NCBI RefSeq assembly: GCF_002930645.1
Contig: NZ_PSNW01000006.1
Span: 124,001-188,000 of the forward strand
Direction of reading: 5' to 3'
Length of the DNA stretch: 64,000 nt
From: Solimonas fluminis
Lineage (GTDB): Bacteria > Pseudomonadota > Gammaproteobacteria > Nevskiales > Nevskiaceae
The notes under the pieces were generated by a model, which saw nothing but the letters and a program-made list of their open reading frames with translations, had not been told where the DNA came from and made no database searches. Of the stretch, positions 2,786 through 61,018 are shown one piece after another (positions within the stretch are counted from its first letter, which is position 1; every line of letters begins with the position of its first letter). A program made the position numbers and the translations under genes.

Positions 2786-3952
2786 ATGGATACCGACAAC
2801 CGGAAGGGCGGAGACCTGAATGCCAAGGCCGAGACCCTGCGGCGCAGTTCCGCCGCCACGGCGCAGCGCAACCTCCTGACCATCCCGCGCCATGCGGACG
2901 GCTCGCCGCGCTACGCGCGCGGCTGGCACATGGTCGGCTGGAGCGACGAGTTCCCCCAGGGGGAGCCGGTGCCCCGCGACTACTTCGGCATGCGCCTGGC
3001 CTTCTTCCGCGGCGAGGACGGCAAGGTCCGCTGCCTGGACGCCTTCTGCCCTCACCTGGGCGCCGACCTCTCCGCCGGCAAGGTCCTGGGCAACGAGCTG
3101 CAGTGCCCGTTCCACAACTGGCAGTACCACGGCGACACCGGCAAGTGCGTGAAGATCCCGTACTGCGCCAGCATCCCGGCCCGCGCCAAGACCCGTGCCT
3201 TCAGGACGCTGGAGATCAACGACACCGTGCTGATCTGGTTCGATCCCGAGGGCGGCGAGCCGGACTACGACATCCTGCCGCTGGAGGACTACCGCGCCAA
3301 GGGCTGGACCCAAGGCTGGCGCCGCTTCCAGATCACCATCAAGACGCATCCGCGCGAGGTGATCGAAAACACCGTCGACAAGGGCCACCTGCTGCCGATC
3401 CACGGCTACGACGTGGACACCTGGCTGCCGGTCTGGGACGGCCACATGACCGGCGAGCTGATGTGGGGCAAGCACACGCGCCTGGCGGCTGACGCGCAGG
3501 ACGACAAGCTCTATGTGCGCTCGCTGACCTTCGGGCCGGCCTACCAGTACACCTGGCAGACGCAGGATTCCAAGATGTTCGACTCCGCGATCCTCACCGC
3601 CTGGTGTCCGATCGACGAATACACCATCGAGTACTGGTTCGGCGTGATCGTGAAGGCCAACTCCAACCAGTTCCCGCCCGAGCACCTGGAAGCCGCCGCC
3701 CAGGGCTATTGCGAGGCCTCGTACCAGGCCTTCATGGAGGACGTCTACATCTGGGAGCGCAAGCTGTTCCGCCCGGAGCCGACGCTCTGCGCATCCGACG
3801 GACCGATCGCCAAGCTGCGCCGCTGGTACTCGCAGTTCTACACCGACCGCGCCGAGGTCGACACCCGCCTGTTCCACAACAGCAACCGGAAGTGGACCGT
3901 GCACGACCTGCGCGACAACATGCAGGCCGTGCTCGCCGAACAGGAAACCTGA
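2786..3952 (+). CDS. Rieske non-heme iron oxygenase, alpha subunit, KshA-related
   Basis: Terminal oxygenase component of 388 aa that would hydroxylate a ring substrate using O2 and electrons from a separate reductase. The Rieske [2Fe-2S] ligands are C88-x-H90 and C107-x2-H110. The mononuclear iron site is D198-x2-H201-x4-H206 with a later Asp in the MEDVYIW segment, the layout of 3-ketosteroid 9alpha-hydroxylase oxygenase (KshA) and related single-subunit oxygenases. The segment around the iron (DKGHLLPIH) departs from the usual DMAHF of KshA, so the substrate may differ. The ATG follows a GAGAGGGGA box. It is the first gene of an operon with a CMD-family protein and a cycloeucalenol isomerase-like membrane protein. 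No ferredoxin reductase is adjacent, so electrons must come from a partner encoded elsewhere. Confidence 0.85.
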   Translation: MDTDNRKGGDLNAKAETLRRSSAATAQRNLLTIPRHADGSPRYARGWHMVGWSDEFPQGEPVPRDYFGMRLAFFRGEDGKVRCLDAFCPHLGADLSAGKVLGNELQCPFHNWQYHGDTGKCVKIPYCASIPARAKTRAFRTLEINDTVLIWFDPEGGEPDYDILPLEDYRAKGWTQGWRRFQITIKTHPREVIENTVDKGHLLPIHGYDVDTWLPVWDGHMTGELMWGKHTRLAADAQDDKLYVRSLTFGPAYQYTWQTQDSKMFDSAILTAWCPIDEYTIEYWFGVIVKANSNQFPPEHLEAAAQGYCEASYQAFMEDVYIWERKLFRPEPTLCASDGPIAKLRRWYSQFYTDRAEVDTRLFHNSNRKWTVHDLRDNMQAVLAEQET

Positions 3953-3977: not shown

Positions 3978-4361
3978 ATGAGTCGCTACGACCGCAAGAA
4001 GGGTGTGGAGCTGTTCAACGAGGTCTACTGCGGCAAGGTGCCGCTGCCGGCCGGGGAGGGCCAGAGTCCGTTCATCGACTACATGCTGGAAACCCTGTTC
4101 GGCACGCTCTGGGCCGACGGCACCCTGTCCATCCGCGACCGGCGCCTGCTGCTGATCGGCGCCATCGCCGCGCAGGGCGAGGCCAGCACACTGGCGATCC
4201 AGTTGCGCTCCGCGCTGCTGCGCGGCGAACTGACGCCGGAACAGCTCGATGCCGTCGCGGTGTTCCTGACGCAGTACGTCGGTTATCCCAAGGGTTCGCA
4301 GCTGTTCCAGGTCTGCAATGGCGTCAAGGCCGAAGCGCAACAGAAGCAAGGGACCCCATGA
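3978..4361 (+). CDS. Carboxymuconolactone decarboxylase (CMD)-family protein
   Basis: All-alpha protein of 127 aa. The segment RDRRLLLIGAIAAQGEASTL followed by LRSALLRGELTPEQLDAVAVFLTQY resembles the CMD/AhpD fold used by gamma-carboxymuconolactone decarboxylases and relatives. The CxxC pair of the AhpD peroxidase branch is absent, so a peroxidase role is unlikely. A GGAGGAG box lies 7 bases before the ATG. Its stop codon overlaps the start of the next gene (ATGA), which implies translational coupling with the cycloisomerase-like protein. A lyase or isomerase step on the product of the upstream Rieske oxygenase is a plausible role but is inferred only from context. Confidence 0.75.
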   Translation: MSRYDRKKGVELFNEVYCGKVPLPAGEGQSPFIDYMLETLFGTLWADGTLSIRDRRLLLIGAIAAQGEASTLAIQLRSALLRGELTPEQLDAVAVFLTQYVGYPKGSQLFQVCNGVKAEAQQKQGTP

Positions 4362-5227
4362 CCACCGCTACCGCTTCCGCGGCTTCTTCCGGGCGCATTC
4401 CCGGCTACTGGTTCTCGCAGAACCCCGACAAGGCCTGGGGCGAGAAGTTCTTCCTGAGCTTCCTGCCGGTGTTCCTGGTGTTCAACGGCGTGGTGCAACA
4501 GATGGGCTGGCTCGACACCGGCAACTTCTGGAACATCACGCAGAACTTCCTGATGTGGGTGCCCTACTGCCTGCTGCTGCCCTGGTGGCTGCGCCGCAAC
4601 AGCGGCGTCCCGGCCACGCAGAGCTATTGGTTCAAGTTCAACGTCTACATGGCGGTCTACGTGTTCTGGTGCACGTACTTCCATACCGAATACTTCTTCT
4701 CGGTGCTGGGCATCCGCTATCGCTTCCCCGAGGTGACGCTGTACTTCGATTCCGCCCTGCTGGGGCCGGCCGAAGCGACGGCGCGCGAGACCTTCCAGAA
4801 GGTCCCGCCGAGCATGTACCTCAATGCCATCGCCTTCTTCGTGGTCTATCACACCTGCTCGGTGGTGATCATGCGCCGCGTGCGCAGCCTCACGCCGAAT
4901 GCCTCGCCGCTGCTGCGCAAGCTGCTGTGGTGCCTGACGGTGGCCGTCACCGCCTTCTTCTTCGCCTGGGCCGAGACCTTCTTCTACGTCACCGAGGGCA
5001 TCAAGCAGCATGTCTGGTACGTGGACATGACGCGCATGCTCAGCATCGGCTCGGTCTGCTACATGCTCTATTTCCTCGTGAGCTTCCCCAATGTCTACCG
5101 CCTGGACGAGGAGGCGGGCGGCGAGCGCTGGAGCGTCTACCGCGCCGCCATGGAGGCCTCGGCCGTCAGCATGGTGATCCTGTTCCTGCTGGACCTGTTC
5201 GCCTGGGTCTACGGACCCATCGTCTAA
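4358..5227 (+). CDS. Cycloeucalenol cycloisomerase (CPI1)-like membrane protein
   Basis: Polytopic membrane protein of 289 aa with about seven hydrophobic segments. It follows plant cycloeucalenol cycloisomerase along nearly its whole length, from memory of that family: NPDKAWGEKFFL near the N-terminus, YWFKFN, FHTEYFFSVLG-x-R-YRFP, a RRVRSL loop, FAWAET, YFLVSFPNVYRLDEE and a C-terminal LDLF...GPIV. The plant enzyme opens the 9beta,19-cyclopropane ring of cycloeucalenol to give obtusifoliol. The gene overlaps the CMD-like gene by four bases and is the last of a three-gene operon that starts with a Rieske oxygenase; a strong terminator follows. No squalene epoxidase or oxidosqualene cyclase is in the window. 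The setting therefore points to use of external cyclopropyl sterols or a repurposed sterol/terpenoid isomerase rather than sterol synthesis. Family assignment is firm; the substrate is open. Confidence 0.82.
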   Translation: MTTATASAASSGRIPGYWFSQNPDKAWGEKFFLSFLPVFLVFNGVVQQMGWLDTGNFWNITQNFLMWVPYCLLLPWWLRRNSGVPATQSYWFKFNVYMAVYVFWCTYFHTEYFFSVLGIRYRFPEVTLYFDSALLGPAEATARETFQKVPPSMYLNAIAFFVVYHTCSVVIMRRVRSLTPNASPLLRKLLWCLTVAVTAFFFAWAETFFYVTEGIKQHVWYVDMTRMLSIGSVCYMLYFLVSFPNVYRLDEEAGGERWSVYRAAMEASAVSMVILFLLDLFAWVYGPIV

Positions 5228-5338: not shown

Positions 5339-6100
5339 ATGAGCGGCGCAGCGATCAAGGCGGGCAGGGGACAGGCAGCGGCGCCGCGCGTCGGCCGGCC
5401 GCCCAGCGTCACCGTGCCCCAGATCGTGGCCGTGGCGCTGGAATTGGGCCTGGACAACCTGTCGCTCAAGCAGCTGGCGGACCGGCTCGGCATCGGGCTG
5501 GCGACGCTATACCGCCACGTCGGCACGCGCGACGAACTGTTGCGCCTGGCCAGCTTCGAGCTGATGCTGCGCCGCCAGGCGCCGGCGGCGGAGTCCGCCC
5601 ACTGGTCCGAGGTGGCGCTGCAGTACGCCGAAACCCTGCTGCAATCCTTCATCGCCGAGCCGCAGCTGATCACCGAACTGCAGCGCGGCCGCCTCGGCCC
5701 GCATGTCGAGGTGGACCTGCTGGAGAAGTTCCTGGGCGTCATCACGCGGCATGGCTTCAGCATCGACGAGGGCGTGCGCCTGTTCCACGCCATCGGCACC
5801 GTGGTGGTGGGCACCGCCACCGGCATGACCGGCAACCGCGCCGCCGAGGCGGCCGGGGAATCCTGGAAACTGGAGACGCGCCGCGTGCTCGGCGCGCGCG
5901 ACGACGACGAGCTGCCCCTGGTGCGCCGCGCCTATCCGCAGTTCATCGACCCGGGCACCGCGCAATGGCAGTTCACCATCCGCAGCCTGCTGGCCGGCGT
6001 GGCCGCCGGGCGCGGCGAGGTGCTGCCGGCAGACCTGCTTTCGACACCAACGGCCGACAGAGCCGTGTCCATCACGCGCAAGGGCAGCGGCAAGCCCTGA
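5339..6100 (+). CDS. TetR/AcrR-family transcriptional regulator
   Basis: Regulator of 253 aa. After a basic N-terminal tail, residues of about 20-65 form the TetR helix-turn-helix (LSLKQLADRLGIGLATLYRHVGTRDELL). The rest is the helical ligand-binding and dimerisation domain. It lies 111 bp downstream of the Rieske-CMD-CPI1 operon and 19 bp upstream of the P450 gene, so it probably controls the P450/rubredoxin unit, itself, or the preceding operon. The ligand may be a steroid or terpenoid, by context. Palindromes at 5290-5317 are candidate binding sites. Confidence 0.88.
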   Translation: MSGAAIKAGRGQAAAPRVGRPPSVTVPQIVAVALELGLDNLSLKQLADRLGIGLATLYRHVGTRDELLRLASFELMLRRQAPAAESAHWSEVALQYAETLLQSFIAEPQLITELQRGRLGPHVEVDLLEKFLGVITRHGFSIDEGVRLFHAIGTVVVGTATGMTGNRAAEAAGESWKLETRRVLGARDDDELPLVRRAYPQFIDPGTAQWQFTIRSLLAGVAAGRGEVLPADLLSTPTADRAVSITRKGSGKP

Positions 6101-6119: not shown

Positions 6120-7400
6120 ATGAGCGCCAGCAACACGCCAGCCCGCATCGAGATCGACGGCAAGATCTTCAACCCCTATTCCCGCGACTTCATCCGCTCG
6201 CCCTGGGCCACCTGGGACCGGCTGGTGAAGGAATTCCCGGTGGCCTGGCACAAGGACCTCAGCATGTGGGTCGTCAGCAGCCACGATGCGCTGATGGACA
6301 TGCTCAAGGACAACCGCTTCTCCACCAACTACAAGCACTGGGAATTCGCGCCGCCGCCCAAGCCGGTGGAGCAGCAGAACCACTTCGAGCGCGCCATCGA
6401 CGCCGGCCTGTTCGCGGTGGACCCGCTGCAGCACCTGCGCCTGCGCAAGCTCACCATGCCGGCTTTCTCCAAGCCGGTGATGGGCAAGATCGACGCCAAG
6501 ATCCGCGACCTGATCACGCAGTGCTTCGACGAGATCGGCACCCCCGACCAGTTCGACGCCTTCAGCATGATCGCGGAGAAGCTGCCGGTGCGCTCCATCG
6601 CGCGCATGGTCGGCGTGCCGACCAACATGGAAAGCTTCTTCCATGACTTTGCCGTCAATGTGGTCAAGTCCACCCGCATCAACCTGCCGCTCAAGGAGCG
6701 CGAGAAGGCGATGCAGGACACCCTGCCGGGCTTCCAGTACTTCCTGGACCTGATCAAGGAACGCCGCGCGCTGCCGCACCCGGGCGAGGATTTCGTCGGC
6801 CAGCTGGTGGCGGCCTCCGACAACGGCGATTCGCTCAACGACTACCAGATCGTCTCGGTGATCCAGGCCGTGATCGTGGCCGGCTCCGACACCGCCACCG
6901 ACCTGCACACCTATGCCATCCAGGGCCTGCTGTCGAATCCCGACCAGTACCAGCTGCTGCGGCAGAAGCCGGAGCTGATGGAGAACGCCATCATCGAGTT
7001 GCTGCGCTACGGCGCCTTCGGCAAGACCCCGCAGTTCCGCTTCGTCTCCGAAGACCTGGAGTGGCGCGGCCAGCAGTTCAAGAAGGGCCAGTCGGTGCTG
7101 ATCAACCTCACGGCCGCCTGGATGGACGATTCCAAGTGGGAGAACCCGCGCAAGCTCGACATCCAGCGCCGCCTCGACGGCAATCTGGTGTTCGGTGCCG
7201 GCGCCCACTTCTGCATCGGCACCTACCTGGTGCGAGTGCAGGGCGGCCTGATGATCCAGGAGCTGATGAAGCGCTTCCCCAACGCCGAACTGGTCAACGG
7301 CAACGGCGACGTGGAGTACGACTACAACCACCACAACGCGCGGCGCATCAACCGCCTGCTGGTGAAGACCAACGTCGAAGCGGCACGCAAGGCGGCCTGA
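6120..7400 (+). CDS. Cytochrome P450 monooxygenase
   Basis: Soluble bacterial-type P450 of 426 aa. The heme-binding loop FGAGAHFCIG gives the thiolate ligand C365. The I-helix oxygen-binding motif is AGSDT (254-258) and the K-helix ExxR is E293-x2-R296. There is no membrane anchor. It would insert oxygen into a C-H bond with electrons from a ferredoxin-type partner. An AGGAG box lies 8 bases before the ATG, 19 bp after the TetR stop, so the two genes are probably co-transcribed. A rubredoxin gene follows 153 bp later. The neighbourhood suggests a steroid or terpenoid substrate; the sequence alone does not identify the CYP family. Confidence 0.92.
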   Translation: MSASNTPARIEIDGKIFNPYSRDFIRSPWATWDRLVKEFPVAWHKDLSMWVVSSHDALMDMLKDNRFSTNYKHWEFAPPPKPVEQQNHFERAIDAGLFAVDPLQHLRLRKLTMPAFSKPVMGKIDAKIRDLITQCFDEIGTPDQFDAFSMIAEKLPVRSIARMVGVPTNMESFFHDFAVNVVKSTRINLPLKEREKAMQDTLPGFQYFLDLIKERRALPHPGEDFVGQLVAASDNGDSLNDYQIVSVIQAVIVAGSDTATDLHTYAIQGLLSNPDQYQLLRQKPELMENAIIELLRYGAFGKTPQFRFVSEDLEWRGQQFKKGQSVLINLTAAWMDDSKWENPRKLDIQRRLDGNLVFGAGAHFCIGTYLVRVQGGLMIQELMKRFPNAELVNGNGDVEYDYNHHNARRINRLLVKTNVEAARKAA

Positions 7401-21595: not shown

Positions 21596-23182
21596 ATGAG
21601 AAGCAAAGGTAAGGTCCGCCGGCTCGCCGTACGCCGCGGTGTTCTGGGTGCCGCGCTGATCGGCGCGGCGGGAGCGCAGGGAACGGCCGTCGCCGGCTCG
21701 CTGGATGTCGGCGGCGGTTTCGATGCGAAGTACAACCTGACGCTGGGCTATGCCGCCGCCATGCGTACGGAAAGTCCCGACAGCGCGCTGACCGGCCCGG
21801 CGGCGGTCAACGCCGACGACGGCGACCGGAACTTCGATTCCGGCAGCCTGATCAACAACCGCGCCAGCCTGCTCGCGGAATTCTATCTCTCGCGCGGCGG
21901 CTACGGCGCGGTGCTGCGCGGCGACGCCTTCTACGACGACGTCTACCACCGCCGCAACGACAACGACTCGCCCGGCACGGTCAACAAGGCCGGCGACAAC
22001 GATGAGTTCACCGACGACGCCCGCAAGTACAGCGGCGGCCGCGCCCGCGTGCTCGACGCCTATGTCTATGGCGACTGGTCGCTGTCGGACAGCGTGCAGC
22101 TGAACCTGCGCGGTGGCCGACAGGTGGTGGCCTGGGGCGAAAGCCTGTTCTTCTCCGGCATCGCCGGCGCCCAGGGCCCCGCCGACGCCACCAAGGCCAA
22201 CGTGCCGGGCGCCGAGATCAAGAACATCCTGCTGCCGGTGGCGCAGGTCTCCGGCCAGCTCGACATCGGCTCGCGCACCAGCCTGATGGCCTACTATCAC
22301 CTGGAGTACAAGCCCACCGAGCTGGACCCGGTCGGTAGCTACTTCTCGATCTCCGACGTGACCGGCCCGGGCCGCGAGTTCCTGACGCTGGGCCCTGGCT
22401 TCGCCGCGCCCTACGCCGGAGACATCGAGCCCAGCGACAACGGCCAGTACGGCGTCGGCGTCAAGGTGCAGGTCAGCGGCTCGACCAATGTCGGCCTCTA
22501 CCGCCTGCGCTACCACGACACCAATCCGGCCTTGTCGCTGAACATCGCCGAGGTCGCGCCCGGCGTCTTCGCCCCGGTGTCCTACAACATCGGCTACTTC
22601 GATGGCATCGACATGACGGCGCTGAGCTTCTCCACGCGCCTGGGTCCGGCCAACGTCGCGGGCGAGGTGAGCTACCGCGAGGGCATCAACGTGCTGGTCG
22701 ACGGCCCGCTGGGCCCCACGTCCAGCCGCGGCGACCTGGCGCAGGTCCTGCTGTCCTCGCTGTACACCGTGCCGCCCAACTTCCTGTCGCAGGAGATCGG
22801 CCTGGTGGGCGAGGCCGGCTACATCCATGTCGAGGACTTCGACAAGGTCGCCGGCGGGCCGGGCACGCTGACCAACGACAAGATGGCCTGGGGCTACTCG
22901 CTGATCGCCACCCTGAACTACCGCAACGTGTTCCAGGGCTGGGACCTGGCGGTGCCGATCACCTGGGCGCACCTGCCCGAGGGCAACCCGGCCATGGCCG
23001 GCTCCTTCGGCAGCCTCTACGGCCAGGGCGACCGCCGCCTCAGCGTCGCCGGCAACTTCACCTACCTGCAGAACCTGCAGGTGGGCGTCAGCTACAACGC
23101 CTACCTGGGCTCGGCCACGCTGGCCGAACGCCCCTACGCGGACCGCGACTACGTCGCGTTCAACGTCAAGTACGCCTATTGA
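21596..23182 (+). CDS. DUF1302-family outer-membrane beta-barrel protein
   Basis: Outer-membrane protein of 528 aa. After a basic, alanine-rich signal peptide (about 1-34) the protein is strand-rich with alternating polar and hydrophobic residues and ends in an aromatic FNVKYAY, as expected for a porin-like barrel. LNLRGGRQVVAWGESLFF and the SLINNRASL segment are typical of DUF1302. Genes of this family sit next to DUF1329 genes in Gammaproteobacteria that degrade steroids or other hydrophobic compounds, and uptake across the outer membrane is the usual proposal. Here a DUF1329 gene follows 17 bp later, so the two are in one operon. A strong AGGAGGAG box precedes the ATG. Confidence 0.85.
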   Translation: MRSKGKVRRLAVRRGVLGAALIGAAGAQGTAVAGSLDVGGGFDAKYNLTLGYAAAMRTESPDSALTGPAAVNADDGDRNFDSGSLINNRASLLAEFYLSRGGYGAVLRGDAFYDDVYHRRNDNDSPGTVNKAGDNDEFTDDARKYSGGRARVLDAYVYGDWSLSDSVQLNLRGGRQVVAWGESLFFSGIAGAQGPADATKANVPGAEIKNILLPVAQVSGQLDIGSRTSLMAYYHLEYKPTELDPVGSYFSISDVTGPGREFLTLGPGFAAPYAGDIEPSDNGQYGVGVKVQVSGSTNVGLYRLRYHDTNPALSLNIAEVAPGVFAPVSYNIGYFDGIDMTALSFSTRLGPANVAGEVSYREGINVLVDGPLGPTSSRGDLAQVLLSSLYTVPPNFLSQEIGLVGEAGYIHVEDFDKVAGGPGTLTNDKMAWGYSLIATLNYRNVFQGWDLAVPITWAHLPEGNPAMAGSFGSLYGQGDRRLSVAGNFTYLQNLQVGVSYNAYLGSATLAERPYADRDYVAFNVKYAY

Positions 23183-23199
23183 TTGCGAGGAGATTCCAG

Positions 23200-24579
23200 A
23201 TGGATCACATCAAGATGAATCGGACCCTGTCCCGATTCCTGGCGGCCGGCCTGATCGCCACCGCCCTTCCCATGGCCCATGCCAAGGGCACCCCCGAGGA
23301 GATCGCCGCCCTCGGCGGCAAGCTCACCTGCGTCGGCGCCGAGCGCGCCGGCAATGCCGACGGCTCCGTCGCCGCCTGGACCGGCAAGTGGAGCGACAGC
23401 TATCCCGGCTACAACGGCCCCGGCAAGTACAGCCCCGGCCCCTACGCCGACGAGAAGCCGCTGTTCACCATCACCGCGCAGAACGCCGCGCAGTACGAGG
23501 CGAAGCTGACGGCGGGGCAGAAGGAACTGCTCAAGCGCTACCCGCAGTCCTTCCGCATGCCGGTGTATCCGAGCCACCGCGACTTCGCCTACTCGGCCAA
23601 GGTCTGCGAGGCGCTCAGGAAGAACGCCGCCAGCGGCGAAGTGGTGAACGACGGCATGGGCGTGCAGGCGGTCAGCGGCGCGCCGGCCATCCCGTTCCCC
23701 AAGAGCGGCATCGAGGCGCACTGGAGCATGGTGACGCCGCACCGCGCCTGGACCGAGCTGGTGGTGTCGGACTCCGCCGTGGTCTACCCCAACGGCAACA
23801 AGTCCTGGGGCCGGGTCGACTACAAGATCCTGTCGCTGAGCAACGACCCCAAGCAGACGCGCAGCTCGCAGGACCAGATCGACTCCTACTTCAAGGTGCG
23901 CACCCTGTTGCCGGAACGCCAGAACGGCGAACTGTTCATCGGCTGGAACCCGAACGACTACCACAACGACGATCGCCAGACCTACTTCTACAGCCCGGGC
24001 ACCCGCCGCGTGCGCCAGGCGCCGGAGTTCGGCTTCGACACGCCGCAGGGCGCGGGCGGCTTCCGCACCGTGGATGACGACCGCCTGTTCAACGGCTCGC
24101 CGGAGCGCTACGACTGGAAGCTGGTCGGCAAGAAGGAGATCTACGTTCCGTACAACGCCTTCCGCCAGAACGACACCTCCGTCAGCTACGACACGCTGCT
24201 GACCCCCAACACGCTGAACCCCGACTACCAGCGCTACGAGCTGCACCGCGTCTGGGTGCTGGAGGCCACGGTGAAGTCCGGCTACCGCCACGCCTATGCC
24301 CGCCGCACGTTCTACATCGACGAGGACAGCTGGCATGCCCTCTGGGTGGACAACTATGACGGCCGCGGCAACCTCTGGCGTGCCAGCATGGTGAACTACT
24401 TCTGGGCGCCGGAGATCGGCGGCTTCCAGGCCGGCGTCGCGGTCTACCACGACCTCACCGCGGGAGCCTATTTCGCGGATCGCCTGGTCAACCAGTCCAA
24501 GCAGTGGTGGCTGCTGAACCAGGGCGGCCTGACGCCGGAGATGTTCTCCGAGTCGGCGGCCAAGCGCTCGGGTCACTGA
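23200..24579 (+). CDS. DUF1329-family periplasmic/outer-membrane-associated protein
   Basis: Exported protein of 459 aa with signal peptide ending PMAHA. It has the DUF1329 hallmarks: NADGSVAAWTGKW near the start, PYADEKPLFTITAQNAAQYEAKLT, FYSPGTRRVRQAPEFGFD, FNGSPERYDWKLVGKKEIY and YRHAYARRTFYIDEDSWHAL. The fold is related to lipoprotein-carrier proteins (LolA/LolB-like), which suggests binding of a hydrophobic ligand. It pairs with the DUF1302 barrel upstream; a shuttle between barrel and inner membrane is the favoured idea, not proven. The start is set by GAGGAG eight bases before the ATG. A second DUF1329 protein is encoded at 31250-32626. Confidence 0.87.
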   Translation: MDHIKMNRTLSRFLAAGLIATALPMAHAKGTPEEIAALGGKLTCVGAERAGNADGSVAAWTGKWSDSYPGYNGPGKYSPGPYADEKPLFTITAQNAAQYEAKLTAGQKELLKRYPQSFRMPVYPSHRDFAYSAKVCEALRKNAASGEVVNDGMGVQAVSGAPAIPFPKSGIEAHWSMVTPHRAWTELVVSDSAVVYPNGNKSWGRVDYKILSLSNDPKQTRSSQDQIDSYFKVRTLLPERQNGELFIGWNPNDYHNDDRQTYFYSPGTRRVRQAPEFGFDTPQGAGGFRTVDDDRLFNGSPERYDWKLVGKKEIYVPYNAFRQNDTSVSYDTLLTPNTLNPDYQRYELHRVWVLEATVKSGYRHAYARRTFYIDEDSWHALWVDNYDGRGNLWRASMVNYFWAPEIGGFQAGVAVYHDLTAGAYFADRLVNQSKQWWLLNQGGLTPEMFSESAAKRSGH

Positions 24580-26862: not shown

Positions 26863-28380
26863 TCAGCGCTTCGCGATCCTCACCACCACCTCGGCCGCCC
26901 CCGCCAGGTTCTCCAGCCTCAGCAGCCCGGCATTGGCCGGCGACAGGCTGCGCGCACCGGTCACTTCCAGCGTATAGCCCGAGGGATAGTGCATGGCCAG
27001 GGGCACGTAGATCTCGGTGGGGCCGCGCGCCGCGCGGGGCGTGTAGCGGTACTCGAAGGCGGCGGTGTCCGGGTCGAAGGACAGGGACTGCGGGATGCCG
27101 GCGGTGGCCTGCGGATAGGTCCGCACCAGCACCTTCAGCTTGGCGGTCTTGGCCGTGGACAGGTCGGCGTCGTCGGTGAACAGGCTCTGGTCGCCGCTGC
27201 CCTGGGACTCGGTGGTCGGGTCGCGCCAGTTCTTGTACTGCCAGTATTGCCAGCCCACCAGGCGCTCGTCGGCGTCCGAGGTCACGTCCAGCAGCACCTG
27301 CATGTCCTCGGTGGCGCCGAACTCGGTCAGCAGCTCCACCGCATCCATGCGGTCCGCCTGGGCCCGGGCCTGGTCGAAGACCCGGGGGCCGAAGGCCTGG
27401 CAGGTATCGTCCAGGCCCACCGGCAGGGCGTCCAGGATGCCCAGCTGCAGGGCGTTGCCGAGGGTGTTGAGCGGACAGTAGTAGTGGAAAGAGAAGCCCA
27501 GCTGTTCCTCGCCCGGGATCGCGGTGAAGCCGGTGGGTGCGCCGGTGCTGGTCAGGGGCTGCGACTGGAACCAGACGATGTTGTGCGGGTCCTCGGCGCG
27601 GATCGCCCGGCGGGCGTGGTCGAAGAAGGGCTGCAGCGAGCCGCTGTCATGCCAGGGGCAGCCGGTCAGGGGAATCAGGCAGGTCGGGTAGTCCAGGCCG
27701 GCCCAGGGTTCGTTCATCAGGTCGTAGCCCATGGAGTAGGGCTGGTTCTTCCAGCGCCGCGCCACCGCCGCCCAGGCCTCGGCGAAGCCGTCGCGGATGT
27801 CCTCGCTGGCCCAGAAGCGGTCGAAGGCCTCCGACAGCTGCGGCATGAAGTAGTTGAAGGGGAATCCGAAGGACGGGGCGCCCAGCAGGGTGGTCAGCGG
27901 CCCCTTGGCCTCTTCCACCGCCCAGTCCGGCACGCCTTCGCCCTGGTAGGCCGGCCCCAGCAGGTCCTGGTGGAAATCGAACAGCATCCAGATCCTGCGC
28001 GAGGCCAGCAGCTGGATCGTGCGATCCCACTGCGCCAGGTAGTCCTGGTCCACCGTGCCCCGCTCCGGCGCCACGCCGACCCACAGCGTCCCGATGCGGG
28101 CGTTGTTGAAACCGTGCCGGGCCAGCCAGTCGGCATCCTGGGCCAGGAAACCCTCGGCCGTGGCCGGCGGGTAGAAGGGGGCCTCCTTCCAGACCATGTT
28201 GACGCCGTGCAGCAGCACCACGCGCCCCTCCGGGTCCACCAGCCAGCGACCCTCGCGACGCAGCTGCGGCGCCTCGCTGCCGCCGGGAGGCGGGCTGCCG
28301 GCCGAGGGGGTGGATGACTGGCAGCCGGCCAGGGCCAGGGCCAGGGCGGCAAGCGCCCCACGAATCAGGGTATTACGCAC
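26863..28380 (-). CDS. GH5-family endoglycoceramidase-like lipoprotein
   Basis: Glycoside hydrolase of 505 aa exported as a lipoprotein: lipobox ALAGC (C20) then a Ser/Pro-rich linker. The (beta/alpha)8 core starts at LLHGVNMVWK and contains DFHQDLLG (about 135-142), acid/base E224 in YDLMNEPWAG and nucleophile E353 in LLTEFGA. This is the endoglycosylceramidase branch of GH5, which cleaves the sugar-ceramide bond; related GH5 enzymes in fungi act on steryl glucosides. A C-terminal beta-domain follows (about 400-505). GTG start with GGAGGAG five bases before it; upstream ATG codons would bury the signal peptide. It converges with the epimerase gene and diverges from the Rieske oxygenase. Confidence 0.82.
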   Translation of the reverse strand: MRNTLIRGALAALALALAGCQSSTPSAGSPPPGGSEAPQLRREGRWLVDPEGRVVLLHGVNMVWKEAPFYPPATAEGFLAQDADWLARHGFNNARIGTLWVGVAPERGTVDQDYLAQWDRTIQLLASRRIWMLFDFHQDLLGPAYQGEGVPDWAVEEAKGPLTTLLGAPSFGFPFNYFMPQLSEAFDRFWASEDIRDGFAEAWAAVARRWKNQPYSMGYDLMNEPWAGLDYPTCLIPLTGCPWHDSGSLQPFFDHARRAIRAEDPHNIVWFQSQPLTSTGAPTGFTAIPGEEQLGFSFHYYCPLNTLGNALQLGILDALPVGLDDTCQAFGPRVFDQARAQADRMDAVELLTEFGATEDMQVLLDVTSDADERLVGWQYWQYKNWRDPTTESQGSGDQSLFTDDADLSTAKTAKLKVLVRTYPQATAGIPQSLSFDPDTAAFEYRYTPRAARGPTEIYVPLAMHYPSGYTLEVTGARSLSPANAGLLRLENLAGAAEVVVRIAKR

Positions 28381-28543
28381 GGCTTCTCCTCCGGACCGGC
28401 GGCGGTGCCCGGATGGCCCGCCGCTCGTGTGGTGTGCGTCTATGAAACGATGCAAGGCTGCACGGGGGATTCACTCAAATGGATGATGCGGCACCCCGGT
28501 ACCACGGAGACACTGCGCCCATTAGCCCCTAGGAGCAAACCCC

Positions 28544-29641
28544 ATGGCTGCCGTTATCAAGACGCCGATGCACAAGATCGAGGCCGAGGCCCCGCCCGAC
28601 CGCTATGCGCGCGGCTGGCACTGCCTGGGCCTGGCAGAACAGTACAAGGACGGCAAGCCGCACGGCATCAACATCTTCGGCACCCGCCTGGTGATCTTCA
28701 AGGGCGAGAGCGGCAAGCTCAGCGTGATCGACGCCTGGTGCCCGCACATGGGCGCGGACCTCGCCATCGGCTGCGTCAAGGGCGAGTCCGTGGTCTGCAA
28801 GTTCCACGGCTGGGCCTGGGGCGGCGACGGCGTGTGCACCGAGATTCCCTATGCCAAGCGCATCCCGCCCAAGGCCCGCGTGAAGTCCTGGCCGACCTGC
28901 GAAGAGAACAAGATGCTCTTCGTCTGGAACGACCCGGAAGGCAACGGCCCGACGCCGGACGTGGCGATCCCGCGCATCGACCCGGTGTTCTCCGAGGAGT
29001 GGTCCGACTGGTCCATCGTGCAGTGGACCATCAAGGTCAACTGCCGCGAGCTGGTCGACAACATCGCCGACATGGCCCATTTCGTGTCCGTGCACGGCTC
29101 CGACAACGTCGTCTACTTCGCCAACCTGTTCGAGAACCACAAGGCCACGCAGGTCATGGTGGGCCTCAACCGCAAGCTCGGCGGCGCCGACGAGTACCTG
29201 ACGACCATCGCCAGCTACTACGGCCCGGCCTACCAGATCACCCACATGTTCGGCTCCATGGGCGGCTACCCGGTGGAGTCGATCCTGCTGAACTCGCACA
29301 CCCCGATCGACCAGCACAGCTTCGAGCTGCGCTTCGGCGTGCTGGTGAAGAAGTTCCCGGGCATGACCCAGGAGGCCTGCGACGCCATGGTCAAGCAGTA
29401 CGTCGACCTGACCAACAAGGCCTTCGGCGAGGACGTCGAGATCTGGCACAACAAGATCCGCATCGACAACCCGCTGCTTTGCGACGGCGACGGTCCGGTC
29501 TACCAGAACCGCCAGTGGTACGATCAGTTCTACATGGACGCCGCCACCGTGCCGGCCGAGCTGCGCAACAAGCGCCTGATCGAGATCGACAAGGGCCTGG
29601 AGAAGAAGCCGGAGCTGAAGCACGCGTTCGATAACGTGTAA
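28544..29641 (+). CDS. Rieske oxygenase, 3-ketosteroid 9alpha-hydroxylase (KshA)-like
   Basis: Terminal oxygenase of 365 aa. Rieske ligands are C66-x-H68 and C85-x2-H88; the iron site is D176-x2-H179-x4-H184 in NIADMAHFVSVH, with GEDVEIW carrying the late Asp region. This closely matches KshA, which 9alpha-hydroxylates androstenedione-type steroids and, with ketosteroid dehydrogenase, opens ring B. It is a better KshA candidate than the related oxygenase at 2786. No KshB reductase or ketosteroid dehydrogenase is in the window. It is monocistronic, with its own terminator after the stop; AGGAG precedes the ATG. Confidence 0.85.
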   Translation: MAAVIKTPMHKIEAEAPPDRYARGWHCLGLAEQYKDGKPHGINIFGTRLVIFKGESGKLSVIDAWCPHMGADLAIGCVKGESVVCKFHGWAWGGDGVCTEIPYAKRIPPKARVKSWPTCEENKMLFVWNDPEGNGPTPDVAIPRIDPVFSEEWSDWSIVQWTIKVNCRELVDNIADMAHFVSVHGSDNVVYFANLFENHKATQVMVGLNRKLGGADEYLTTIASYYGPAYQITHMFGSMGGYPVESILLNSHTPIDQHSFELRFGVLVKKFPGMTQEACDAMVKQYVDLTNKAFGEDVEIWHNKIRIDNPLLCDGDGPVYQNRQWYDQFYMDAATVPAELRNKRLIEIDKGLEKKPELKHAFDNV

Positions 29642-32744: not shown

Positions 32745-34253
32745 ATGAGTTCTGTCGTCGACATCCGCTCCGGCCAGGCCGCCCACGTCCGCCCCCTCTT
32801 CGACCGCCTCGCCGCCAAGGCGCCGGACTACAACCTCACGACCGCCGCCCAGCGCATCGAGAAGATCAGGCGCCTCATGGCTACGGTGCTGAAGTACCGC
32901 CAGGAAATCTACGAAACCGGCAAGCTCGAGCGCGGCCTGACGCCGCCGGACATGGACGGCGAGCTGGTCATGCTCAAGTTCGAAGCCGAGTTCATCGAGC
33001 GCAACCTCGCCAAGTGGATGGAGCCCAAGCCGGCCGAAGGCCCCTCGCTGATGACCCTGGGCAAGAAGTGCTACATGCACTACGAGGCCAAGGGCATGGC
33101 CCTGGTGCTGCCGAGCTGGAACGCGCCCTACGTCATCGGCCTGCTGCCGACCCTGGGCGCCCTGGGCGCCGGCAATGCCGTGATGCTCAAGCCCTCCGAA
33201 CTGGCCCCGCATTCCTCGGCCCTGATCGCCAAGATCGTCAAGGAGGCCTTCCCGGACGGCGACGTCACCGTCGTAGAGGGCGGCGTCGAGGTCTCACAGG
33301 CCCTGCTGGCCTGTCCGTTCAACCATATCTTCTACATCGGCAACAACACCGTCGGCCGCATCGTCATGAAGGCCGCCGCCGACCACTTCGCCTCGGTCAC
33401 GCTGGAGATGGGCGGCAAGAATCCGTCGATCGTCGATGCCAGCGCCGACGTCGAGGACGCCGCCCTGAAGACTTCCTGGGGCCGCATGTGCAACGCCGGC
33501 CAGGCCTGCATCGCGCCGGACTACATCCTGGCGCACGAGTCCGTCATCGAGCGCTTCACCGGTGCCCTGGTGAAGGAAATCACCGCCATGTACAACCCGG
33601 ACGGCAAGGGCTTCGACAAGAATCCCGAGTTCCCGCGCATCATCAATGCCCGCCATTTCGAGCGCATCAAGGCCCTGGTGGAGGACGCCAAGGCCAAGGG
33701 CGCCAAGATCGTCATGGGCGGCGAGTACCGCGCCGAGGACCGCTACATCGCCCCCACCGTGGTGATGAACGTGACCGAGGACATGAAGATCATGCAGGAA
33801 GAGATCTTCGGCCCCGTGATCGTGGTCAAGCCCTGGAAGAACCGCGACGAGGTCATCAAGGAGATCCGCGGCCGCGACAAGCCGCTGGCGCTCTACGTCT
33901 TCGCCAAGGACAAGGCCGCCTGGGAGTTCTTCCGCAACAACACCACTTCGGGCAGCACGGTGCTGAACCACAACGTGGTGCAGTCCGGCACCAACCCCTA
34001 CATCTCCTTCGGCGGCGTCAACAGCAGCGGCATCGGCCGCATGGTCGGCCACGCCACCTTCCTGGAGTGTTCCAACCAGCGTGCCGTGATGGAAGAGGGC
34101 CCGGCCCTGATGGACCCGCGCGACGTGTTCCCGCCGCTGACGGACAAGTACAAGAAGCAGCTCACCCAGCTGATCGAAGGCAAGCCGGTCCCGCCGGCCA
34201 TGGTCAAGCTGATCAGCGGCGTGGTGAATGTGGTGGGCAAGTTCAAGAAGTAA
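32745..34253 (+). CDS. Aldehyde dehydrogenase (class 3 / coniferyl-aldehyde type)
   Basis: NAD(P)-dependent aldehyde dehydrogenase of 502 aa. N126 in PSWNAPY, E221 in LEMGGKNP and C255 in NAGQACIAPDY are the catalytic set. The NAGQACIAPDYI form and the short C-terminal basic tail resemble class 3 and coniferyl-aldehyde dehydrogenases, which act on bulky aromatic or long-chain aldehydes. It may oxidise an aldehyde from side-chain degradation. It is monocistronic between two terminators. A C-terminal segment GVVNVVGKFKK could associate with membrane. Confidence 0.9.
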   Translation: MSSVVDIRSGQAAHVRPLFDRLAAKAPDYNLTTAAQRIEKIRRLMATVLKYRQEIYETGKLERGLTPPDMDGELVMLKFEAEFIERNLAKWMEPKPAEGPSLMTLGKKCYMHYEAKGMALVLPSWNAPYVIGLLPTLGALGAGNAVMLKPSELAPHSSALIAKIVKEAFPDGDVTVVEGGVEVSQALLACPFNHIFYIGNNTVGRIVMKAAADHFASVTLEMGGKNPSIVDASADVEDAALKTSWGRMCNAGQACIAPDYILAHESVIERFTGALVKEITAMYNPDGKGFDKNPEFPRIINARHFERIKALVEDAKAKGAKIVMGGEYRAEDRYIAPTVVMNVTEDMKIMQEEIFGPVIVVKPWKNRDEVIKEIRGRDKPLALYVFAKDKAAWEFFRNNTTSGSTVLNHNVVQSGTNPYISFGGVNSSGIGRMVGHATFLECSNQRAVMEEGPALMDPRDVFPPLTDKYKKQLTQLIEGKPVPPAMVKLISGVVNVVGKFKK

Positions 34254-34502: not shown

Positions 34503-35465
34503 TCAGCTGCCCAGCCGCCGCACCCAGCTCCGCAGCGACTTCACGCGGTCCAGCAGGCCCGTGCCGCCGGCGGCGACCGGCGGCGGGGCGGCGGGCGCCT
34601 CCACCTCGTAGCGCTGGTGCAGCGTCGGGCTGGCGGCCAGGCGCTGGTGCTGGCGCACGGCGGAGTTCACCGCGATCTTGCACTGGCTGTCGTGGATCGG
34701 CTTGGTGATGAAACGGTAGATCTGGCCCTGGTTGATCAGCTCGATGGCGCTGCCGGCGTCGGCGCGGTCGGTGAGGATCACCGATACCAGTTCCGGGTGG
34801 TGCTGCTTGAGCGTGCCGATCAGGCTCACCACCGGGTGGTCCTGCACGCGGGTGTCGGAGATCACCACGCCGATCTGGTTCTTTTCCAGCTGCTCAACCG
34901 CCTCGTTCATCGAGCTGGCGCCGTAGACCTTGAAACTGGGGCCCAGGATGGTCTGGATCTGCGGCGGCACGCGGGGGTCGTCGTCCATCACCAGCACGCC
35001 GGCGGCACCGGCCACGGGCTGCACGGCGGGGCTGTCGGCGGTCTCGGCGGGGGCGGCGGCCGCGGCGGCCATGCTGGCCTTGGCGGCGGCCACGGCGCGG
35101 GCCACCGTGGTGCTGAGGTCATCGTTCATCCACGGCTTGTTGACGAAGCGGAAGATCTCGCCTTCGTTGATCGAGCCGATGATGGCGTTGAGGTCGGAGT
35201 AGCCGGTCAGCAGGATGCGCATCGCGTTGGGGTTCAGGTCCCGCGCCGCGCGCAGCATCTCGATGCCGGTCATGCCCGGCATGCGCTGGTCGCTGACGAT
35301 CACATCCACCGGCTGGGTCTTGAGCAGGTCCAGGGCCGCCTGGCCGCTTTCCGCGAAGAACACCTCGTAGCGGCTGCGGAACAGCATCCGCATGGTCGTC
35401 AGGACGCGGGGTTCGTCGTCCACGAACAGCACGCGGGCTTTCTGGGTCGGGGCTACATCATCCAT
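34503..35465 (-). CDS. Response regulator with two receiver domains, no output domain
   Basis: Two-component receiver protein of 320 aa. REC 1 (about 10-125): acidic D16-D17, phospho-acceptor D59 (VSDQRM), Thr in LLTGY and Lys in VNKPW. REC 2 (about 155-280): MDDDPR, D204 (ISDTRV), ILTDRAD and ITKPI. An alanine-rich linker joins them. No DNA-binding or enzymatic output domain is present, so it probably passes the signal by protein contact. It starts 47 bp downstream of the histidine kinase and is likely its cognate regulator. The C-terminal 40 residues are basic (VKSLRSWVRRLG). Confidence 0.88.
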   Translation of the reverse strand: MDDVAPTQKARVLFVDDEPRVLTTMRMLFRSRYEVFFAESGQAALDLLKTQPVDVIVSDQRMPGMTGIEMLRAARDLNPNAMRILLTGYSDLNAIIGSINEGEIFRFVNKPWMNDDLSTTVARAVAAAKASMAAAAAAPAETADSPAVQPVAGAAGVLVMDDDPRVPPQIQTILGPSFKVYGASSMNEAVEQLEKNQIGVVISDTRVQDHPVVSLIGTLKQHHPELVSVILTDRADAGSAIELINQGQIYRFITKPIHDSQCKIAVNSAVRQHQRLAASPTLHQRYEVEAPAAPPPVAAGGTGLLDRVKSLRSWVRRLGS

Positions 35466-35512
35466 CGAAAACTGACTCCTCGGACTGCTTCAGGCCAGGT
35501 CCCTGGCTCGAT

Positions 35513-37402
35513 TCATGCGGCGGCGAGTTCCGGTGCCGCGCTCACCGCAGTGTCGCCGCTCTGGCGCTTCTGCTTCAATGGCAAACGGATTACAAATTCA
35601 CTGCCCTTGCCCACGGTGGAACGCACGTCGATGCGGCCGCCGTGCTCCTCGATGATGCGGAAGACGATGGACAGGCCCAGGCCCGTGCCCTTGCCGACCG
35701 CCTTGGTGGTGAAGAACGGCTCGAAGATGCGGGCGCGCACCTCCTCGGTCATGCCGCAGCCGGTGTCCAGGATGCGGACGATGACGCCCTCGGCCTCCGC
35801 GCTGGTGTGGATGTAGATCTTGCCTTCGCCCTCGATGGCCTGGGCGGCATTGGTGAACAGGTTCAGGAATACCTGGTTCAGCTGAGAGGGCGAGCACTCG
35901 ACTTGCGGCAGCGGGCCGAACTGCCGCACCACCTCGATGCGGGTCTTCAGCAGGTTGTTGGCGATCTTCAGCGCCGAGTCGATGCCGGAGTTGATGTCGA
36001 ACAGGTCGGTGCGCGAGCGGTCCACGCGCGAGAAGTCCTTCAGCGAGGACACCAGGTCGGCGATCTGCACCAGGCCGAAGTCGGTGTCCTTCAGCAGGTT
36101 GCCCAGGTCCTCCATGGTCTCGGCGGGGTTCAGGGTGGCGCGCAGGCCCTCGGCCTCGGTCAGGGCGGTGGCCACTTCCTCGTCGGAGGCGTTCTGCGCC
36201 GTCATCAGCGTCAGCGCGCGATCCTGGGCGGTGATCAGCCCGCGCAGGTCGTCCAGCGAGTTGCGCACGATCTCGGTGTTGCTGCGGGCATAGCCCAGCG
36301 GCGTGTTGATCTCGTGGGCGACGCCGGCCACCATCGTACCCAGCGAGGCCATCTTCTCCGACTGCACCAGCTGCGCCTGCGAGGCGCGCAGGTCCTGCAG
36401 CGCGGTGCTGAGGTCCTTGGTGCGGGCGGTCACCTGTTCTTCCAGGTGTTCGTTGGCATGCGACAGTTCGGCATTGGCGCGGTCGATCTCGCGGAAGGAG
36501 CGGGCCAGCCTGAAACCGAGGAAGGCCAGCACCAGCAGCAGCGCCGCGGCATAGGCGGCGAGGTAGGTCCGGTACTGGTTGGCGACGGCGACCTGGCCTT
36601 CATGCCAGCTCATGTAGGCCTGTTCCAGGGCCTGCAGCTGCGGGCCGGTGGGGCGGTCGAGGAAGTCGCGCAGCTTGGCCACCAGCTCGGTCTTGTCGGC
36701 GATCACTTCCTCGGAGCGGTCGCGCAGGCCCTTCACGGCCTTGGTGAAGGGCGGGTCTTCCGGTTCGAACTGCGGCTCGCCCTCGGCCACCGGTGCCGGC
36801 GGCGGGGTGGGCGGGGCCATCGCCTGCAGTTGCTCCAGCAGCGCGCGGATGTTGCCGGCGGCGGCCGCCGGCGGCGTCGGCGTCACGCCGAAGTTCACGA
36901 TCTCGGTCTTGACCTGCATCGTCAGGTTGCGGACCTCCTCGCGCTGCGCATCGGTCGCCGCGGCGGTCACGGCGTCGGCGTAGGTCGGCACGGCGTCCAT
37001 GCTGTTGATCAGGCGCTGCGTCAGCAGGGTGTTGCGCGCCTCGGAGTCGAAGGCCAGCTCGAACTTGCTTTCGATGGTATCCAGGAAGGTGTCCAGGGCC
37101 TTGTCGATCTCGGGCGTCAGGCCGCGCAGGGCGCCGGCGTCCTTGTCCAGCGCGTTCAGCGCGGTGTCGAGCTGGCCGGTGGTGCCGGAGCGGTCGGTGA
37201 CGGAATCGGCCAGCGAGGACACGCGCGAGCCGGTGAACTGGCGGTTGAGCAGCACGTCGAGGTTGCCGACCACCTGGATGCGTTCCAGGCGCGCGCGGTG
37301 CAGGTCCGCGTCCACGCTCTGCGTCATGCGCAGCAGGAAGACCAGCACGCCGATGGCCGCCACGGCGAGCAGTGCAAAGAACACTTGCCTGAGCTTCTTC
37401 AT
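35513..37402 (-). CDS. Sensor histidine kinase with periplasmic helical domain
   Basis: Membrane kinase of 629 aa. TM1 is about residues 7-25 and TM2 about 278-298; between them is a helix-rich periplasmic region with a Pro-rich loop (198-220), of the DAHL type. A coiled coil follows (305-350), then the H-box GVAHEINTPL (H363), N-box QVFLNLFTNAAQAI, DTGCGM (G1), FEPFFTTK and GKGTGLGLSI (G2). It autophosphorylates H363 on an unknown signal and should phosphorylate the two-REC protein next to it. No ligand is evident. Confidence 0.9.
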   Translation of the reverse strand: MKKLRQVFFALLAVAAIGVLVFLLRMTQSVDADLHRARLERIQVVGNLDVLLNRQFTGSRVSSLADSVTDRSGTTGQLDTALNALDKDAGALRGLTPEIDKALDTFLDTIESKFELAFDSEARNTLLTQRLINSMDAVPTYADAVTAAATDAQREEVRNLTMQVKTEIVNFGVTPTPPAAAAGNIRALLEQLQAMAPPTPPPAPVAEGEPQFEPEDPPFTKAVKGLRDRSEEVIADKTELVAKLRDFLDRPTGPQLQALEQAYMSWHEGQVAVANQYRTYLAAYAAALLLVLAFLGFRLARSFREIDRANAELSHANEHLEEQVTARTKDLSTALQDLRASQAQLVQSEKMASLGTMVAGVAHEINTPLGYARSNTEIVRNSLDDLRGLITAQDRALTLMTAQNASDEEVATALTEAEGLRATLNPAETMEDLGNLLKDTDFGLVQIADLVSSLKDFSRVDRSRTDLFDINSGIDSALKIANNLLKTRIEVVRQFGPLPQVECSPSQLNQVFLNLFTNAAQAIEGEGKIYIHTSAEAEGVIVRILDTGCGMTEEVRARIFEPFFTTKAVGKGTGLGLSIVFRIIEEHGGRIDVRSTVGKGSEFVIRLPLKQKRQSGDTAVSAAPELAAA

Positions 37403-50138: not shown

Positions 50139-51995
<1,857 letters not shown>

Positions 51996-58472: not shown

Positions 58473-58984
58473 TGATAACCCCCCAGGATCGCGGCGACGT
58501 CCTTGGGCTCCACCGGCCCGTGCAGGTCGTCGTCGATCATCATCGTGGCGCCGCGGTCGCAGGCGCCCAGGCAGCAGATCGGCAGCAGCGTATAGCGGCC
58601 GTCCTTGGTGGTCTGGCCATAGCGGATGCCGAGCTGCTTCTCCAGCTCGTCGCGCAGCTCGTCGTAGCCGGTGAGATGGCAGGAGATGCTGTCGCAGACC
58701 TTGATCACGTGGCGGCCCACCGGGCGGCGGAAGATCAGGCTGTAGAAGGTGGCCACGCCCTCGAGGTCGGCGGCGCTGATGCCGATGGCGGCGGCGATCA
58801 CCGGGATCGCGTCGTCCGGCACCCAGCCGCGGTGCTTCTGCACCGCCTTGAGCGCGTCGATGCTGGCCGCGCGGCCGTCGGGGTAGTGGGTCAGGGCGTG
58901 CTCGATCTCGTGGCGCTCCTCGTCGCTGAGGACGAAGGAGGGCTTGTTGAGGTCGGCGAGTTTGACGACTTTATCTGTCGACAT
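58469..58984 (-). CDS. nuoE: NADH-quinone oxidoreductase subunit E
   Basis: Subunit of 171 aa with a thioredoxin-like [2Fe-2S] domain: CDSISC and CCLGAC supply the N1a cluster ligands. It pairs with NuoF. Its start lies 14 bp inside the nuoCD 3' end, so the two genes are translationally coupled. Confidence 0.95.
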
Positions 58985-60752: not shown

Positions 60753-60755
60753 TAG

Positions 60756-61018
60756 AGCTTTCCCATGAGCAATACGCGCACGCGACGGAGGTCGTTTTGG
60801 CGTTCCGCTAACCCTATCGACCCGCGGTGTACACGAGTACATAAGGGGCGATACGGGCCGCGGGGCGCGAAAACGGCCCCGTCCCTCCGGGTTGCGCCGG
60901 AAATCGCGCCATGCTGCGCCGGCCACTGCTTATTTGGAACCACCAAACCGCGCATCGACCGACTTGCCGGGCGCGATTTCTGGCAGCAACGCGTGTGCGT
61001 ATTGCTCATGGGGAGGCT
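60756..61018. repeat. 263-bp element with 29-bp terminal inverted repeats in the nuo operon
   Basis: The stretch between nuoB and nuoCD starts and ends with near-perfect inverted repeats, 60756-60784 and 60990-61018 (AGCTTTCCCATGAGCAATAC against its complement, 3 mismatches in 29 positions). Inside is a second inverted repeat, GAAATCGCGCC (60900-60910) and its complement (60970-60980). Other nuo genes of this operon are spaced by at most a few dozen bases, so this is an exception. It could be a MITE-like insertion or a structured RNA; I see no gene or transposase in it. The right arm carries the nuoCD ribosome-binding site. Confidence 0.75.

Follow-up and report, generated by a model that had tools for sequence, protein, structure and literature searches.

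What would a bacterium in which no oxidosqualene cyclase is found do with a gene that resembles a plant sterol isomerase? The question is raised by a 64,000-nucleotide stretch of Solimonas fluminis contig NZ_PSNW01000006.1 (the window), which encodes a 289-residue membrane protein similar to CPI1, known as the cycloeucalenol cycloisomerase, or cyclopropyl-sterol isomerase (CPI), of plants and Dictyostelium. To our knowledge the CPI family has been described from eukaryotes only. A preliminary description of the window had matched the protein to plant CPI1 along its whole chain and proposed that it helps to degrade cyclopropyl sterols or triterpenoids, or else that the isomerase has been turned to a different ring. 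We found that the gene probably encodes a bacterial cyclopropyl-sterol isomerase that serves breakdown and not synthesis. From the plant enzyme and the gene neighbourhoods we infer its reaction, its substrate, the order of steps and the roles of the accompanying Rieske and EXPERA-like proteins.

The reference used was an unverified Arabidopsis CPI1 sequence, matched to no database copy; against it the bacterial protein showed 30% identity over 280 residues by BLASTP (E 9e-31). A profile of 26 bacterial rows aligned with the same reference in hhalign at a probability of 100% (E 2.2e-44) and retrieved it in hmmsearch at E 2.1e-58, while the best of 2000 shuffles of CPI1 reached 0.019. This CPI1 reference carries the same residue in 31 of the 42 columns that are invariant in the bacterial rows; bacterial invariants that differ there are S20, D24, A26, E111, M153, Y154, Y221 and S232, among them the substitutions S20A, D24S, A26R and E111H. 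Motifs quoted in the preliminary description are present in the translation, including the C-terminal GPIV. The AlphaFold2 model has seven long helices (pLDDT 86.5, pTM 0.86), and the chain holds five or more hydrophobic stretches, which fits a polytopic membrane protein. The sequence and profile comparisons group the protein with CPI1 and not with an unrelated membrane family, and by whole-chain similarity and conserved residues it is a predicted member of the CPI family, as far as the unverified reference is correct.

We found no match to the protein in Pfam or NCBIfam at E<=1, the EXPERA/EBP family PF05241 included, nor among PDB sequences at E<=10, and a fold search with the model found none in PDB or BFVD. 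The missing fold match and a reference matched to no collection copy count for a spurious likeness, the reference being wrong and the protein belonging to another membrane family. We consider this highly improbable: the sterol-operon context described below was found from bacterial sequence alone and indicates the same kind of substrate, and CPI was named independently in the preliminary description.

In the window the gene stands in a forward-strand row of Rieske oxygenase (KshA_C), CMD-family, CPI-like, TetR-family and cytochrome P450 genes. The CMD stop and the CPI start share the bases ATGA, and a four-base overlap recurs in four further loci (ATGA in L002, L003 and L037; GTGA in L038), with a short gap in L036. 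This bears out the proposed coupling of CMD and CPI behind a Rieske oxygenase. A CMD gene lies within 3 kb of CPI in all ten other loci read from the close clade, the clade of the window's own CPI. The rest of the set is only partly conserved: the TetR and P450 genes are 88-92% and 93-97% identical, respectively, to the copies in L002, L003 and L036 but lie near CPI only within the genus, and it is uncertain whether the P450 is a member of the pathway.

To separate synthesis from breakdown we looked for cyclases and for catabolic markers. CPI is carried by 18 of 85 genomes of the window's order, and TIGR01787 at its cut-off was searched in these and in 11 further carriers; four others (G493-G496) were not included. 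No oxidosqualene cyclase was found in the 29 carriers, and 26 of them had no cyclase over the cut-off. The motif DLDDTA marks squalene-hopene cyclases, and DCTAE oxidosqualene cyclases. Three carriers of the order (G023, G024 and G026) have a cyclase over the cut-off and the other 15 have none; all three are of the DLDDTA, squalene-hopene type (motif read in L056-L059, L096 and L097), and DLDDTA cyclases occur in 18/18 genomes of their genus, g6. The window's own genome has no TIGR01787 match over the cut-off, G050 has a 22.6-bit fragment only, and the 11 carriers outside the order have none over the cut-off, with weak fragments in four (at most 38.5 bits). These results agree with the earlier statement that sterol-synthesis genes are missing. 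They also leave nearly refuted the idea that CPI is a leftover of de novo synthesis, in an organism that would both produce and process cycloartenol, although sterol formation by way of cycloartenol has been reported for a myxobacterium (PMC8172173).

Catabolic markers were found in all carriers of the order. KshA_C oxygenases occur in 18/18 carriers and 31/67 non-carriers of the order (Fisher p 1.7e-5), and an HsaC-like dioxygenase (TIGR03213, E<=1e-30) in 18/18 and 33/67 (p 2.6e-5), both by tests that ignore common descent. The window's own genome has four KshA_C matches and a TIGR03213 match of 3e-84, every carrier's HsaC-like match lying below the model's curated cut-off. A KstD-like protein (FAD_binding_2) is encoded, together with Rieske and EXPERA-like genes, within about 10 kb of CPI in L004, L006 and L040; in L010, CPI is surrounded by CoA-ligase, CoA-transferase and luciferase-like genes. 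This supports the steroid-catabolism setting of the preliminary description and resembles the known 9,10-seco degradation by KshA, KstD and HsaC. Unlike that pathway, CPI with the CYP51, reductase and C-4 genes described below would form an upstream module for substrates with a cyclopropane and extra methyl groups.

The strongest support for a catabolic reading comes from outside the window, from operons of relatives that combine CPI with CYP51 and an 8,14-sterol reductase. Two proteobacterial classes are represented among the 14 loci in which CPI lies less than 2 kb from CYP51; the gaps are 63 to 1960 bases (L041-L046, L081, L106-L109, L007, L013 and L014). The CYP51 proteins of L046, L013 and L014 were identified by PDB match (3.7e-187, 1.3e-131 and 8e-113) and the others by similarity to these three P450s. 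At E<=1e-60, CYP51 was found in 6/85 genomes of the order, which are exactly the six carriers of the distant CPI clade. Outside the order it is present in 6/11 carriers, it stands beside CPI in G493-G496, and in L008 it lies on the same contig as CPI about 20 kb away. The CYP51 beside CPI in L043 (G067:C43:54781-56137) is read in two overlapping pieces in different frames, a frameshift or a sequencing error.

A gene like the published bacterial 8,14-sterol reductase (8,14-Bsr), of NTF2 type, is present in 11 of the 14 loci; none was found in the stretch read of L045, L007 and L014. The six published active-site residues stand at the published gaps in 10 of these 11 genes, and the L013 gene, with gaps of 6/34/2/53/3, has one gap off by 1. 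The spacing pattern occurred in 0/380 other called genes of the loci, and the window's own SnoaL_4 protein is also without it. The order CPI, 8,14-Bsr-like gene, SdmB-like short-chain dehydrogenase/reductase (SDR), CYP51 is identical in 10 of the 14 loci (L041-L044, L046, L081 and L106-L109), and L013 has the same genes in a different order. Genes like sterol oxidase, 3beta-hydroxysteroid dehydrogenase (3beta-HSD), SdmB and aldehyde dehydrogenase (ALDH) are frequent flankers; a GMC oxidoreductase, ALDH, FA_hydroxylase and 3beta-HSD occur all four together in L044, L046, L081, L107 and L108. The FA_hydroxylase family also includes sterol methyl oxidases. DUF1302/DUF1329 genes lie within several of the loci; none of the papers listed links both to steroids, and the association is one seen here.

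These loci can be compared with the CYP51-ferredoxin-8,14-Bsr loci of methanotrophs, Mycobacteriales and Myxococcota in PMC13277303, where homologues from Methylococcus, M. tuberculosis and Sandaracinus were tested. The two are alike in that the distant-clade loci hold CYP51, in part with ferredoxin, and a Bsr-like gene of the same active-site spacing. They differ in that CPI is added here; the word cyclopropyl is absent from the main text of that paper as available. The same source reports that sterol-making methanotrophs use the same kinds of CYP51, 8,14-Bsr and C-4 genes, which would suit a salvage or remodelling of exogenous sterols, trimmed and then kept for membranes or signals instead of being burnt. 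A further difference is that those methanotrophs produce their own lanosterol. With KshA_C and HsaC-like genes in 18/18 carriers of the order, and DUF1302/DUF1329, KstD-like, CoA-ligase and CoA-transferase genes around CPI loci, salvage seems very unlikely; CYP51 and 8,14-Bsr beside CPI look like food-processing genes rather than sterol-making ones.

A breakdown pathway would start with the uptake of sterols or triterpenoids of the cycloartane type, with plants, algae or amoebae as their source. Cycloartenol is the sterol entry point in plants and many algae, and obtusifoliol is a delta-8 sterol. KshA requires a hydrogen at C9, and C9 is quaternary in 9,19-cyclopropyl sterols, so the cyclopropane leaves no target for 9,10-seco attack. 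In plants the enzyme turns cycloeucalenol into obtusifoliol by opening its ring (PMC12667688); by analogy the bacterial CPI would protonate C19 and open the 9beta,19-cyclopropane, yielding a delta-8 sterol in which the C19 methyl is normal. A second enzyme would then shift the delta-8 double bond and put a hydrogen on C9. In the CYP51-type relatives this would be the 8,14-sterol reductase, once CYP51 has acted, and for 8,14-Bsr a protonation at C9 has been proposed (PMC13277303, text available); in the close clade the candidate is the EXPERA-like protein. With C9-H restored, KshA could hydroxylate C9, after which degradation could proceed by the usual 9,10-seco route. The C-4 methyls might be taken off by the FA_hydroxylase, 3beta-HSD, ALDH and SdmB-like proteins in the CYP51-type clade; in the close clade the Rieske oxygenase, together with ALDH and SDRs, might do this. 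Plant CPIs are described as poor on 4,4-dimethyl substrates (PMC12667688, text available), which would agree with the presence of C-4 demethylation genes in a CPI operon.

A candidate enzyme for the delta-8 step is present in all 18 carriers of the order, Bsr-like in five (G001, G003, G057, G058 and G067) and EXPERA-like in the others. G045 has no Bsr-like gene; it has an EXPERA-like gene, below the PF05241 cut-off at 21.6 bits, directly downstream of CPI at the usual Bsr-like place. That one delta-8 enzyme takes the place of another next to CPI is the best indication that CPI delivers a delta-8 sterol; it also speaks against a role of CPI as a mere double-bond isomerase.

In the close clade other genes would have to do the work. 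The 12/12 close-clade carriers, alone among the genomes of the order, have a Rieske gene whose KshA_C score lies at 174-188 bits, with 75-96% identity to the window gene in seven loci; this subtype is defined by its score band and identity, not by a tree. We propose that it may be a methyl oxidase or a dedicated steroid hydroxylase. The Rieske oxygenase SdmA begins C-4 demethylation in other bacteria (PMC10202945, text available) and offers a precedent, though the window protein is far closer to KshA and reaches only 48.3 bits with the SdmA model NF052579 (cut-off 600), so we do not propose it to be SdmA. The EXPERA-like protein, searched with the L036 copy, occurs in 13/18 carriers (all 12 close-clade genomes and G001) and in 2/67 other genomes of the order. 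The L036 protein passes PF05241 (28.2 bits, cut-off 25.7), and the copy of the window's own genome, on contig C29, was identified by similarity to L036 only (6.8e-21). It lies in a second cluster with ALDH, SDR and KstD-like genes, and an HsaC-like gene lies about 31 kb beyond. We also considered a TMEM97-like sterol binder, on the basis of a motif; the only PDB match of the EXPERA-like profile is EBP, the 3-beta-hydroxysteroid-Delta(8),Delta(7)-isomerase, a weak one. The EXPERA-like protein, the weak link of the scheme, may be a delta-8 isomerase, and EBP-type isomerases would be candidates for the step after CPI.

Ahead of CMD-CPI, L036 has a pair of Rieske genes, a pair of DAP_DH_C dehydrogenase genes and the EXPERA gene. 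The trio DAP_DH_C, EXPERA, DAP_DH_C is conserved in L036 (6668-9329), L085 (6392-9094) and L084 (8577-11075); in L036 and L085 it adjoins a short KshA-like Rieske gene and looks like an undescribed steroid-modifying set.

Several observations weigh against an isomerase for cyclopropyl-sterol breakdown. Besides the unverified reference and the co-occurrence tests that ignore descent, E111 is invariant in the 26 bacterial rows and H in CPI1, and the loop 131-136 is missing there, leaving D131, L134 and G136 without counterparts. CYP51 (E<=1e-60) was found in 0/12 close-clade genomes, which leaves a gap at the step of 14-methyl removal, and CYP51 was not found in G484, G485 and G487, metagenome-assembled genomes (MAGs) of unstated completeness. 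The non-carrier G010 has an EXPERA-like gene; the EXPERA-like copies of the window's own genome, L004, L037 and L040 have no Pfam hit, so that their assignment is weak, and the EBP match has an E of only 0.011. In two Chloroflexi genomes (L015 and L016) CPI is flanked by biotin-carboxylase, transporter and regulator genes with no sterol context, and neither CYP51 nor a cyclase was found over the cut-off.

The window P450 was rejected as a candidate for the missing CYP51: CYP51 is not among the best 60 of its 276 PDB matches, and no match to a CYP51 query in the window's own genome reaches 1e-60. All natural 9,19-cyclo sterols known to us carry a 14-methyl. The absence of CYP51 from the close clade therefore counts for a repurposed isomerase, in which the CPI fold and its proton chemistry would act on another steroid or triterpenoid bond, such as a ring double bond of ordinary sterols; the residue and loop differences from CPI1 and the Chloroflexi copies outside sterol context point the same way. 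We consider such a repurposing unlikely, because a plain double-bond isomerase would be redundant beside the delta-8 candidate that every carrier of the order already has, and CPI1 shares 31/42 invariant sites. Breakdown of cyclopropyl sterols remains the reading we prefer, supported as it is by carriers without signs of sterol making and by the CYP51/8,14-Bsr operons of relatives. Of the two outcomes that the preliminary description named as refuting it, an unrelated membrane family was not indicated by sequence and profile comparison, and sterol synthesis without steroid catabolism was not seen in the carriers. The wider proposal seems to us an even call: that bacteria without sterol synthesis possess complete front ends with which to mineralise cyclopropyl phytosterols as well as triterpenoids of algae or amoebae, in which CPI would open the ring and either CYP51 with 8,14-Bsr or the Rieske and EXPERA-like proteins would strip methyls and rebuild C9-H for KshA.

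The distribution of CPI is patchy. Outside the order's 18 carriers, it was found in 5/7 genomes of the family of G116, which belongs to another class of the same phylum, and in 2/398 sampled Pseudomonadota, one of them the window's own genome. Fifteen genome-scan loci gave ten further records (L007-L016), L002-L006 being taken as genomes already counted, and the carriers number 33 in total. CPI was found neither on plasmids nor in IMG/VR (searched with the bacterial profile and the CPI1 reference) nor in phage records (searched with the CPI1 reference). L017-L032 were superseded by longer loci from the same genomes. The CPI alignment A1 leaves out L009, which has stops in the chosen frame, and G023, which is counted as a carrier. 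The G023 match (L033-L035 and L048; G023:C144:1889-2259) is in three pieces in different frames, and the G496 gene (L102; G496:C129) has one internal TGA; decay or assembly error may explain either.

In a tree with the CPI1 reference as a long outgroup, whose position is unsafe, members linked to CYP51 fall in three places: the distant clade, L013 beside L010-L012, and L007 and L014, with L008, as sisters of the window's clade. The simplest reading is that the linkage of CPI to CYP51 is old and was later lost in the window's clade. The Chloroflexi copies (L015 10001-10819, L016 10001-10786), each a lone CPI in a groundwater MAG, are 35-37% identical to the CPI1 reference; together with L042 they have the highest identity to it of all rows.

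Neither a bacterial CPI nor genes that break down cycloartenol or lanosterol came up in the titles and abstract openings of the open-licence papers listed. The enzyme name occurs in a list of predicted fungal functions (PMC10714780, text available). The chemistry proposed here has been reported for a bacterium: PMC13277303 cites Lee 1991 and Wang 1995 for a Mycobacterium sp. that turns cycloartenol and lanosterol into C19 steroids; this organism differs in belonging to another phylum, and the accessible text names no ring-opening gene for it. Plant CPI1 in turn differs from the bacterial protein in setting, the latter lying with steroid-catabolism genes in organisms in which no oxidosqualene cyclase was found. 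Our data point to an undescribed route of feeding on plant-type sterols, with a variant of a known enzyme family put to catabolic use; the claim rests on operon evidence across two bacterial classes, together with homology to the unverified reference, from which we infer activity and substrate. The window locus supplies a candidate gene for the ring-opening step, in an operon that lends itself to testing; it offers phytosterol biotechnology an enzyme from bacteria and extends the history of the CPI family to them. If complete front ends exist, the "plant" isomerase would belong to an old bacterial and eukaryotic family with a catabolic branch.

Table 1. Positions of the CPI-like gene and of other features, in the window unless a contig is named
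Feature	Position	Strand	Evidence or remark
CPI-like membrane protein, putative cyclopropyl-sterol isomerase, 289 aa	4358..5227	+	ATG start; third-position GC 0.93
CMD-family protein, 127 aa	3978..4361	+	PF02627 9e-9
Rieske oxygenase, KshA-like subtype	2786..3952	+	PF19298 (KshA_C) 3e-54, PF00355; best PDB match KshA 4qdc 2e-60
TetR-family regulator	5339..6100	+	PF02909 9e-7
Cytochrome P450, not CYP51	6120..7400	+	PF00067 9e-22; best PDB match EpoK 1q5d 5e-49
Second, more typical KshA-like Rieske oxygenase, same island	28544..29641	+	PF19298 3e-74; 251.9 bits
DUF1302 and DUF1329 genes	21596..24579	+	Context; pair also seen in several CPI-CYP51 loci
Aldehyde dehydrogenase (ALDH) of island	32745..34253	+	PF00171 1e-87; context
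EXPERA-like gene of the window's own genome	C29: 66604-67113	-	Similarity to L036

Other features of the window were observed around the steroid island. A family 5 glycoside hydrolase (PF00150, PF18564) is encoded within it at 26863-28455 on the reverse strand; its GH5_C type suggests a lipid-linked sugar, and steryl glycosides would be a guess. At the island edge (34503-37402, reverse strand) a response regulator lies beside a DAHL-domain histidine kinase and may sense island substrates. A 726-residue open frame at 42120-44300 on the forward strand matches no Pfam family at E<=1e-5; its coding signal is strong. A complex I-like operon occupies about 44.6-61.7 kb of the reverse strand; most of its members are guessed from size and order, and a fused 30/49-kDa subunit (58971-60926) and chain 5 (50139-51995) are confirmed by Pfam.

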